Shown here: positions 372-36,241 of the stretch, one piece after another
Layout of the letters: each line of letters opens with the position of its first letter
How positions within the stretch are numbered: the first letter of the stretch is position 1
From: Glutamicibacter uratoxydans
Lineage (GTDB): Bacteria; Actinomycetota; Actinomycetes; Actinomycetales; Micrococcaceae
Assembly (NCBI RefSeq): GCF_006539925.1
Contig: NZ_BJNY01000016.1
Coordinates: 1 to 64,000, forward strand
Length of the DNA stretch: 64,000 nt
Direction: 5' to 3'
Made by a program: the position numbers and the translations under genes
The notes under the pieces: generated by a model
Database searches by the model: none
The model's input: the letters and a program-made list of their open reading frames with translations, nothing else
Told to the model about the DNA's origin: nothing

Positions 372-1847
372 TTATTTGGTTTCAATCGTATCGACCTCGG
401 ATGCATGCTTAACATCGATTTGCGGAAGCTGATCTGGAGTTGGTCCACCGCCGAACTTCGGTGAAGGCTCCTCGCCCTTAGCGATGCGCTCTGCCTCCAT
501 GGCTTCCCATTCGTCGTCCCGGCCCAGCATGCGGGCTGAATCTTCGTTGGTGATTTCACCGGCGAATGCACGCTTCATGGCGTCGCGGTCGAATTGACCT
601 TCCCACTTGGCGACAACGAAAGTTGCCACACAATTGCCCAACAGGTTCACGGCTACACGCATGGAGTCCATGATTCGGTCCGCGCCTAGCAGCAGGGCCA
701 CGCCTGCCACGGGGAAGATACCCAAAGCGGCCGCGGTGGCCGACAGCGCGAGGAATGATGAACCCGGAACTCCAGCCATGCCCTTGGAAGTCAGCAGCAG
801 AACGCCAAGTGCGGCCAGTTGCTGGCCAAAACTGAGACTGTGTCCGAACGCCTGGGCAAGGAAGAGCAGTGAGATCGACAGGTAAATTGCAGCGCCGTCC
901 AGGTTGAAGGAGTAACCGGTGGGAACTACCAGGCCTGTGGTCGCGCGGGAGCAACCTGCGTTGGTCAGCTTGGTCATGATGCGAGGCATCACTGACTCTG
1001 TGGACGCGGTGCCCAGTGCTAGGAGGAATTCCTCTCGGGAGTACTTCAGGAACTGCCACAGCGGAACACGAGCGATGCTCCAAGCGACAATGAAGAGAAT
1101 GCCGATGAATAACAGTGCGGCTAAGTAACAGGCGGCGATAAGCTTCGCGTAGGTTCCCAGCGTTTCAATCCCGTATTGGCCAATGATGAAGCCCATGGCG
1201 CCCAAAGCGCCCAGCGGAGCAACGCGCATGACCCATGACATGACCTTGAAGATCAGTTCGAGGATGTTCTCGAATACCGCTAACAGGGGAGCGCAGCGCT
1301 CCTGGCCGACAACTACGATGGCTGCACCGAAGAAGACCGAGAAGAACAGCACCTGAAGCAGATTATTGTCGGCAAAGGCGCCGATCACGCTTACTGGGAT
1401 GATGCCCAGGATGAAGTCGGCGGCACCCTTTGCTTCGCCGGTCTTTTCCGCAACCGAACCCGCGTCCAGCGTGGAAGGGTCGATGTTCAGGCCGGCGCCC
1501 GGCTGGAAGATGTTGCCGATGATTAGGCCGAAGATCAGAGCAAACACTGTGGCGCAGGTGAAGTACAGCAGTGCCTTGACGCCGACGCGGCCGACAGCTT
1601 TTACGTCGCCCACCGCTGCGATGCCAGTAACGATGACGAGGAAGATCAATGGGGCGATGATCATCTTGATCAACATGATGAATCCGTCGCCAAGTGGACG
1701 GAGTTGCGACCCGATGTTGGGGAAGAAGTGACCGATCAGAACACCTGCAGTAATGGCAACGCCAAGCTGGAAGAACAGGGAGGTGTAGAAGGGCTTTTTT
1801 GGTGCTGGTTCGGCGACTTTGAAGTCGTCGGCAGACTTGATTTTCAT
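372..1847 (-). CDS. dctA: C4-dicarboxylate:cation symporter (DAACS family, DctA-like)
   Basis: This 491-residue inner-membrane carrier would import succinate, fumarate, malate or aspartate with protons or sodium. DAACS hallmarks are visible: the serine-rich re-entrant loop (LGTASTESVMPRIM), the PTGYSFNLDG motif of the substrate-binding helix, and the second hairpin (KGMAGVPGSSF). PTGYSFNLDG and the TESVMPR context favour DctA over glutamate carriers. The frame is open to 1937, but ATG 1847 is chosen because AGGAG lies 5 nt upstream and the protein then begins in family style (MKIKSADDF). It is monocistronic, in the low-GC left segment. The long acidic C-terminal tail after the last helix is common in actinobacterial members. 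Substrate is inferred. Confidence 0.88.
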   Translation of the reverse strand: MKIKSADDFKVAEPAPKKPFYTSLFFQLGVAITAGVLIGHFFPNIGSQLRPLGDGFIMLIKMIIAPLIFLVIVTGIAAVGDVKAVGRVGVKALLYFTCATVFALIFGLIIGNIFQPGAGLNIDPSTLDAGSVAEKTGEAKGAADFILGIIPVSVIGAFADNNLLQVLFFSVFFGAAIVVVGQERCAPLLAVFENILELIFKVMSWVMRVAPLGALGAMGFIIGQYGIETLGTYAKLIAACYLAALLFIGILFIVAWSIARVPLWQFLKYSREEFLLALGTASTESVMPRIMTKLTNAGCSRATTGLVVPTGYSFNLDGAAIYLSISLLFLAQAFGHSLSFGQQLAALGVLLLTSKGMAGVPGSSFLALSATAAALGIFPVAGVALLLGADRIMDSMRVAVNLLGNCVATFVVAKWEGQFDRDAMKRAFAGEITNEDSARMLGRDDEWEAMEAERIAKGEEPSPKFGGGPTPDQLPQIDVKHASEVDTIETK

Positions 1848-35399: not shown

Positions 35400-35441
35400 C
35401 CGGGGCATTGTCACGAAAGTGATGATGCCCCGGATTTTTTT
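35400..35441 (+). terminator. Strong intrinsic terminator of rplKA
   Basis: A 9-bp GC-rich stem (35400-35408 with 35425-35433) is topped by an inner TCAC/GTGA stem with a GAAA tetraloop, followed by a T-run at 35435-35441. Confidence 0.93.
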
Positions 35442-35826
35442 AATTGAAACAATAATTCATGGCAATTGAATTACCGGCAGCTTGAGTTGCTATTGCAGTG
35501 GAAGACCGCGCACAGCTTGAATTTTGACTCCTGTTGCCTTTGCGTTCATTTTCAGCGATGCAGGACCCAGAACTCGACTGCTCGAAGATACTAATATCCA
35601 GCAAGGAAGGGCATGAAAAGTGAAAGGAAAGCTGAGTAATTTCCTCCGTTTTGCCAAGTGGTGCGTACATTACAAGATGTGAATGTCGTCCGAAGCTTGT
35701 TCATTAAGCGCTTAGCGCGCTGGATGCATAGGCGAATCCGCAAATCGTGACGCGAAAAACGAAAAATAGTTAAAAAATAGCGGCTTTGCGTTCAATCCTA
35801 TGAGTTCTGAATGTTAGGATTTAAGC
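35442..35826. other. AT-rich intergenic region ahead of a small RNA
   Basis: About 385 bp with no supported coding frame and lower GC than its neighbours. Towards its end, TTCAAT (35791-35796) and TAGGAT (35815-35820) with an 18-nt spacer form a plausible promoter for the following RNA. Confidence 0.5.
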
Positions 35827-35966
35827 ACTGATTGATTCAGCGGTGTCTGCATGGGACCCCCAAGACTATGCAGACGCTGGGCGGGTTGGTTTCCCCAAGC
35901 CAATTCGTCGACAAGTAGCCTGCGGCTAGCGTCCCCCAAGTGCTAGCCGCAGGCCTTGTCTTTTTA
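35827..35966 (+). ncRNA. 6C-like small RNA with C-rich hairpin loops
   Basis: Three successive hairpins have C-rich loops. Hairpin 1 pairs 35845-35852 with 35868-35875 and carries five C (35857-35861). Hairpin 2 pairs 35886-35891 with 35898-35903 and carries four C. Hairpin 3 pairs 35918-35930 with 35942-35954 (13 bp), carries five C (35933-35937), and is followed by CTTGTCTTTTT as terminator. The architecture matches the actinobacterial 6C RNA, whose loops bind Shine-Dalgarno regions, except that here the runs are four to five C and an additional hairpin is present. The 5' end is inferred from a promoter at 35791-35820. Confidence 0.65.
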
Positions 35967-36018
35967 ATCCGTGCGGCAGGCGAGTGATCAAGCTCATGCA
36001 TCCCACAGCCCTCTGGAT

Positions 36019-36048
36019 TTGGAGTGCGCGCCAACACGTGCATAAAAT
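36019..36048 (+). promoter_or_regulatory. Predicted promoter of the rplJL operon
   Basis: TTGGAG (36019-36024) and TAAAAT (36043-36048) are separated by 18 nt, placing the start of transcription near 36055, at the beginning of the L10 leader. Confidence 0.55.
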
Positions 36049-36054
36049 AGAAAT

Positions 36055-36190
36055 ACCGAAGACCGTCGGTTGGGCATGTTGCAATACCTGCCCCTAAAGG
36101 TCCGCATGGACAACCAACGCAGGTTTCATAGATTTGTTTTGACTTTGAATGAGTTAAACTGCCCTGTGCTCCTGCGCGGGGCCTTTTTTA
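36055..36190 (+). promoter_or_regulatory. Ribosomal protein L10 leader
   Basis: The 5' UTR of rplJ shows the usual L10-leader order: a short hairpin (ACCGAAGACCGTCGGT), a long-range pairing of CGGTTG with CAACC near 36110-36117, and a terminal hairpin (36161-36168 with 36175-36182) followed by CTTTTTTA. L10(L12)4 binds such leaders to repress translation; the last hairpin may also attenuate transcription. Confidence 0.65.
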
Positions 36191-36241
36191 TGGCCTCGCC
36201 GGTTATGAAACGGTACCGAACAAATCCCCGGAAGGAGTGTT

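Follow-up and report, generated by a model that had tools for sequence, protein, structure and literature searches.

The region between rplA and rplJ of Glutamicibacter uratoxydans lies within the 64,000-nucleotide stretch of DNA analysed here, which we call the window, and contains in 5′ to 3′ order the rplA terminator, a −10-like box, a small hairpin (H0), three hairpins with C-rich loops (H1–H3), a U-run, a promoter-like site of rplJ and an L10 leader. The reading frames of rplA (L1, 34681–35382) and rplJ (L10, 36242–36763) are the upstream and downstream neighbours and lie outside the RNA; like all other features of the region, they are on the plus strand. A 15-pair stem followed by a T-run (35400–35441) forms the terminator of the rplK–rplA operon and parts that operon from the RNA gene. 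Further downstream, an extended −10-like promoter box, TGTTAGGAT (motif TGNTANNNT), occupies 35812–35820, and from its position a transcription start would be expected at about 35826–35828.

The candidate RNA opens with H0 (35828–35840), a stem of 4 pairs that reads CUGA..UCAG in the window and CCGA..UCGG in most copies. As folded, H1 (35841–35879) carries CCCCCAAG in its loop at 35857–35864, with CCCCC at 35857–35861, and H2 (35880–35909) has CCCC at 35893–35896 as its entire 4-nt loop, within the motif UCCCCAA. H3 (35910–35960) displays CCCCC at 35933–35937 in its loop and is followed by UUUUU at 35961–35965, resembling an intrinsic terminator. Between this RNA and the L10 leader lies the promoter-like site of rplJL (TTTGGA ... 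TAAAAT, 36018–36048), which includes an ATTTG element. The leader of rplJL (36038–36197) aligns over its full length with Rfam family RF00557, yet its score of 35.4 bits (E 0.00063) falls short of the cut-off (44), and automatic annotation would therefore overlook it.

We also observed a GTGA-N6-TCAT half-site pair at 35984–35997 of the window, 71–72 bases before the L10-leader ACCGAAGACCG. The pair is present at 12 of the 16 loci of the genus that have the RNA and at both that do not, and in none of the copies examined from other genera. We take it to be a CRP/GlxR-like site, and it is perhaps an activator site of rplJL.

Folding of 35800–35990 yielded −91.5 kcal/mol against −61.1 ± 4.6 kcal/mol for 200 shuffled sequences (z −6.65, with no shuffle as good), and H3 on its own gave a z of −7.3. 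A pattern of three C-loops occurs once in the 64-kb window and in none of 100 shuffles. The original prediction of three successive hairpins with loop C-runs of 5, 4 and 5 is borne out by sequence and fold, and to these 35821–35966 adds the small 5′ hairpin H0, absent from that earlier account. The claim that H3 is a terminator holds for the window copy, in which the U-run follows the hairpin directly, and is less clear elsewhere in the genus: an immediate U-run is found in 8 of the 16 copies (the window's group), and the other 8 keep H3 without it.

Conservation and covariation

BLAST recovered the RNA from 8 of the 18 genomes of the genus, the window's own included, and a covariance model built from these eight copies (R1; A3) detected it in 16 of the 18, the best match of each having an E of 2.5e-18 or better. 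By tblastn, rplJ lies 3′ of the RNA in all 16 copies and rplA lies 5′ in 15. The sixteenth copy belongs to genome G016, where a reverse transcriptase of a group II intron (RVT_1, GIIM; L037 2586–3485, minus strand) is situated in the rplA–rplJ region 5′ of the RNA, its reading frame standing in place of rplA in the 1.5 kb of flank covered. The two remaining congeners, G014 and G015, contain no RNA between the end of rplA and the L10 leader, and R1 finds nothing there. Both retain the end of rplA, the terminator, the rplJ promoter region and the L10 leader, and the absence is a clean one.

Alignment of the 16 copies placed 94.6% of cells in standard pairs, a value somewhat favoured by derivation of the structure from the same alignment. 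Changes on both sides affect 29 of 46 pairs (shuffle mean 20.4, with 0 of 500 shuffles as high), the covariation score is 0.609 versus 0.296, and slid controls were 33–41% paired with at most 11 pairs changed on both sides. Invariant columns make up 21 of 29 in the C-loops versus 23 of 92 in the stems. The pattern recurs hairpin by hairpin: CCCCCAAG in H1, UCCCCAA in H2 and YCCCCAA in H3 are each invariant in 16 of 16 copies, while two-sided change affects 10 of the 13 pairs counted in H1, 7 of the 9 counted in H2 and 11 of the 20 in H3. All cells of H0 are paired in the 16 copies, and one of its pairs has changed on both sides. The C-loops are frozen while the stems covary. Conservation of loops and stems in related genomes, named beforehand as a test of the original prediction, was checked and found.

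A loose three-C-loop pattern extended the distribution beyond the genus, matching 55 of 395 genomes of the family. Thirty-six of these are among the 38 genomes of four genera: the window's own (g1, 16 of 18), g23 (15 of 15), the Galactobacter genus (g11, which contains Galactobacter caseinivorans; 4 of 4) and g30, represented by Zafaria cholistanensis (1 of 1). The reversed control pattern matched none of the same 38 genomes. The other 19 matching genomes, from six further genera, contained on viewing mostly repeats or scattered C-runs. In g23, rplJ adjoins the RNA in all 11 copies fetched (of 15), with rplA inside the retrieved stretch in 7 of the 11; both genes flank the RNA in three of the four Galactobacter-genus copies, the fourth being cut by a contig end, and both flank the g30 copy. 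The position between the L11–L1 and L10–L12 operons, singled out as notable when the RNA was first proposed, is thus conserved across four genera. Between these genera the stems are wholly different, and the C-runs are kept together with the AA or AAG that follows them.

In a tree of L1, L10 and L12, for which rplA was missing in some rows, the four genera group with a small-genome genus (g12) at a bootstrap of 84; by the three-C-loop pattern the RNA is absent from all 4 g12 genomes. The simplest reading of these distributions would be a single origin at the rplA–rplJ locus, with subsequent losses in g12 and in G014 and G015. Run over 295 family genomes with stricter filters, R1 returned 15 genomes of the genus (G006 was missed) and six weak matches in other genera, all devoid of C-loops. 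One of these C-loop-free hairpins, L029, reached 31 bits, so R1 scores in the twenties were not taken as proof. A genome-wide pattern scan of named records gave at least 118 stretches, mostly repeats or coding sequence as judged by fold and eye; among the matches listed, only those from Galactobacter, Zafaria and one Actinomycetota MAG were judged plausible.

Relation to 6C RNAs and other C-loop arrays

The C-loops invite comparison with the 6C RNAs (RF01066), called B11 in mycobacteria and cgb_03605 in Corynebacterium glutamicum. Like these, the window RNA is actinobacterial and short, with consecutive stable hairpins bearing C-runs in their loops, a similar spacing between the runs and a 3′ hairpin close to a terminator. 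A 6C RNA is described as a pair of stem-loops that typically carry six C apiece (PMC4046766), and mycobacterial 6C RNAs as having a conserved neighbourhood close to the Ms1 RNA (PMC9569102). The window RNA, in contrast, has three C-loop hairpins in addition to the small 5′ one, has AAG after C-runs of 5, 4 and 5, and sits between rplA and rplJ; shorter C-runs and a third hairpin had both been pointed out originally, and both were confirmed.

With the Rfam 6C model, the window RNA went unmatched even at E 10, and its own genome had no match at E 1. Across the 18 genomes of the genus nothing exceeded the cut-off of 47 bits, and two weak matches (34.0 and 25.3 bits) both lie at other loci. Other Rfam matches of the window RNA (mir-9209, BTE and sX13) fell far below their own cut-offs. 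In the Galactobacter genus, however, the rplA–rplJ copies scored 49.6, 50.0 and 45.1 bits, the contig-end-cut fourth being unreported. The covariance search first suggested for this RNA failed for the window copy and succeeded for two of four sister-genus copies at the same locus, which supports the initial description as a divergent 6C member or a related RNA. Chance resemblance of the GC-rich Galactobacter copies to 6C is possible, since they clear the cut-off by only 2–3 bits.

Only 10 of 197 family genomes pass the 6C cut-off, the two from g11 and eight from genus g6. The model detected 12 RNAs in g6, 8 of them above cut-off, and in all 12 the fold includes a third C-loop hairpin, on the 5′ side of the pair covered by the model; UCCCCCAAG is found in the loops of 8 of the 12 and CCCCAAG in 10. 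Scores of R1 on these RNAs (24.6–29.9 bits in ten, 15.7 in one, none in one) are near noise, and we give them little weight because L029 scored higher. Class-wide, 141 of 296 genomes matched the 6C model at E 0.001 and 111 pass the cut-off. The best 30 class-wide loci, among which canonical members are over-represented, have two C-loop hairpins in 27 cases, one in 2 and three in 1. None of the 12 g6 loci and none of these 30 lies within about 1.5 kb of rplK, rplA, rplJ or rplL, a further difference from the RNA of the window.

On these sequence features we class the window RNA with the actinobacterial 6C-type RNAs, as a variant with three loops. The other account of the same features, an unrelated new family of three-C-loop sRNAs that came upon a 6C- or sX13-like design by convergence, we consider rather unlikely. 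In its favour, the four genera share little in their stems, the R1 run across the family gave no strong match outside the genus, the window copy itself has no Rfam 6C match, further C-loop arrays exist at other loci, and the same layout occurs in the proteobacterial sX13 (PMC3771888). It is opposed by the sister-genus RNAs that pass the 6C cut-off at the very same locus, and by the UCCCCCAAG loop and extra 5′ C-loop common to the g6 RNAs that the 6C model found. Loop motif, layout and sister-genus matches together make a 6C-type origin likelier than convergence. A literature search, partial in depth, returned no sRNA between rplA and rplJ and no three-loop 6C RNA in the sources it reached, which is weak evidence of novelty.

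Several other candidate C-loop arrays were observed. In the genus, a two-loop pattern gave 84 matches against 39 for its reversed control; the rplA–rplJ RNA accounts for 32 of the 84, and the remainder is a small excess at most. A second putative g23 RNA, in G089 and G138 (L233 ~1900–2100 and L236 ~1940–2130), has a closed three-armed predicted fold with CCCCCAAG in each arm; a histidine kinase gene precedes it and a nitroreductase gene lies downstream. Within the window's own genus, G005 has another triple C-loop array at a different locus (L248 ~1000–1160; 33.6 bits with R1). Genome G143 of genus g3 contains a series of small hairpins that all display UCCCCAAG as their loop (L249 ~1370–1530, minus strand), and G134 and G184 contain repeated CCCCCAA hairpins (L245, L246). 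Divergent copies of the RNA stand beside an aldo/keto reductase gene in G010 and G009 (L025 and L026; 1501–1637, minus strand), scoring 70 and 50 bits and having C-loops only in hairpins 1 and 2. G007 has a putative two-hairpin C-loop RNA with a terminator (L028 1501–1594, minus strand), to which a stretch of G016 corresponds (G016:C1:1600770–1600815); the reading frames flanking this type of two-loop RNA gave no Pfam match. Finally, an Actinomycetota MAG has three stable hairpins with UUCCCCCAA loops (L151 1831–1975, minus strand) between genes named by eye as LysR-like and HAD/acyltransferase-like.

A broader proposal is that a Micrococcaceae clan of C-loop arrays forms a regulatory layer of RNAs with two, three or more loops, in which the number of loops is free and the CCCCAA(G) motif fixed, the arrays serving as multivalent decoys for a shared partner. 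Its members would include the rplA–rplJ RNA, the three-armed form of g23, the G005 triple and the g3 rows of UCCCCAAG hairpins. The constancy of the AA or AAG behind the C-run would then indicate such a partner, whether a protein (Rho, for instance) or a single abundant RNA, and not just scattered G-runs. We regard this proposal as unlikely.

Proposed targets and partners of the C-loops

The reading that we favour, and hold to be likely, is of a separately transcribed regulatory RNA of ~140 nt, a three-loop 6C-type variant whose C-loops act in trans by pairing with G-runs close to start codons. It takes the structure, the conserved loops, the covarying stems, the locus, the promoter-like box and the clean losses from the sequences themselves, and adds transcription, action in trans, pairing and repression as inferred steps. 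The promoter at 35812–35820 would drive a small RNA of about 140 nt comprising H0, the three C-loop hairpins and the terminator, from a gene sitting between the L11–L1 and L10–L12 operons in one branch of the Micrococcaceae. Its C-loops, with their shared core CCCCAA (complement UUGGGG), would pair in trans with G-runs near the start codons of several mRNAs and thereby block translation of these targets. Three loops may allow the RNA to engage several G-runs or several mRNAs.

Two published systems provide the precedent. In Mycobacterium abscessus, the 6C RNA B11 is reported to repress eccB4 via a six-G tract, with either loop sufficing, and the loops are described as repressing through G-tracts at the ribosome-binding site (PMC10470900). 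The sX13 RNA of Xanthomonas (RF02232) is reported to have three stems with loops of 4, 4 and 5 C and to repress mRNAs carrying GGGG motifs near the start, an action that needs the C-loops and the GGGG motifs and proceeds without Hfq (PMC3771888). The window RNA shares with sX13 its three stems and apical loops of 4–5 C; this is a resemblance of layout and no homology is claimed, since sX13 is gammaproteobacterial and its model scores the window RNA at a chance-level 10.7 bits (E 6.1, cut-off 50).

Our own target search was negative, and pairing in trans is thus argued from structure and precedent. Six genomes were scanned for CTTGGGGRN{3,9}ATG, that is, CUUGGGGR 3–9 nt before AUG. Five genomes with the RNA gave 15, 11, 28, 24 and 17 matches, against 6, 7, 6, 6 and 7 for the reversed pattern. 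G014, which has no RNA, gave 16 against 5; matches thus outnumber the control whether or not the RNA is present. Of the 111 sites, 108 were fetched, the other three being the antisense strand of the RNA gene itself; only three pairs were shared by two genomes, and their frames (at least 60 aa) did not look gene-like by eye. Target prediction for the C-loops, originally recommended for mRNA leaders, yielded no conserved gene start as a target under this strict pattern in the six genomes. The negative is a weak one because of that strictness: targets of sX13 are reported to need only GGGG (PMC3771888).

The partner of the C-loops could instead be a protein. Rho prefers C-rich RNA, and either Rho or an Sm-like WYL protein with a preference for C might bind the loops, making the RNA a decoy or cofactor. 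The fixed AA or AAG after each C-run, more than pairing with a G-run alone needs, fits such binding, as does the RNA-binding fold of the WYL domains of Arthrobacter PafBC, for which activation by RNA has been proposed (PMC6789036). Against this, C-loop RNAs, in the publications cited here, act by pairing; we judge the protein-based account quite improbable.

A probable separate gene beside rplJ

All 32 copies examined, which come from four genera, have the motif TGNTANNNT upstream of the RNA, and in the 16 copies of the genus its position does not vary; the motif was picked after some copies had been read, and about 8% of 87-base stretches would be expected to match at even base composition. 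A consensus scan did not report the box at 35812–35820. Downstream, the ATTTG element precedes the L10 leader at 32 of 33 readable loci, counted by eye, including both loci that do not have the RNA. With the box upstream and this element before the leader, the RNA has the appearance of a unit running from promoter to terminator. Since a promoter-like site and an L10 leader belong to rplJ itself, and since two congeners cleanly dispense with the RNA, it is probably a separate gene rather than a leader of rplJ.

If the RNA were a leader or attenuator acting in cis on the rplJL operon, it would lie on the strand of rplJ and directly upstream of it, as it does in every copy whose 3′ flank was covered. 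Such a leader would have no rplJ promoter between itself and the genes it controls; here a promoter-like site separates the RNA from the L10 leader in 32 of the 33 loci, and that leader (RF00557), although in the same intergenic region, is a separate element 3′ of the RNA. The two congeners that have no RNA keep the rest of the region, and an RNA of this kind is absent between rplA and rplJ in most genera of the family. We consider control in cis very unlikely.

Still less probable is that the hairpins are merely terminators, or hairpins acting at the DNA level, that insulate two strongly expressed operons. The terminator-like H3 and the very stable stems would suit that role; however, rplA has its own terminator at 35400, the loops are the most conserved part although a terminator does not need that, and the promoter-like box stands ahead of H0 in 32 of 32 copies. 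A short peptide encoded from the invariant AUGG in H1 was rejected as having next to no likelihood, because its frame varies from 11 to 89 codons in the 16 copies and is conserved only in the first residues, a ribosome-binding site is absent upstream, and the AUG sits within a covarying stem.

RNAs of the 6C type are widespread in Actinobacteria, yet the Rfam model finds none above cut-off in the genus to which the window belongs. If the RNA is the separately transcribed three-loop 6C-type variant that we favour, its locus shows such an RNA changing past recognition by a covariance model, with the loops kept, the stems rewritten and one more hairpin present. The fixed genomic place lets orthologues be traced by synteny, and the two congeners without the RNA offer a natural comparison for the function of C-loop RNAs in a setting where RNA chaperones are poorly known.
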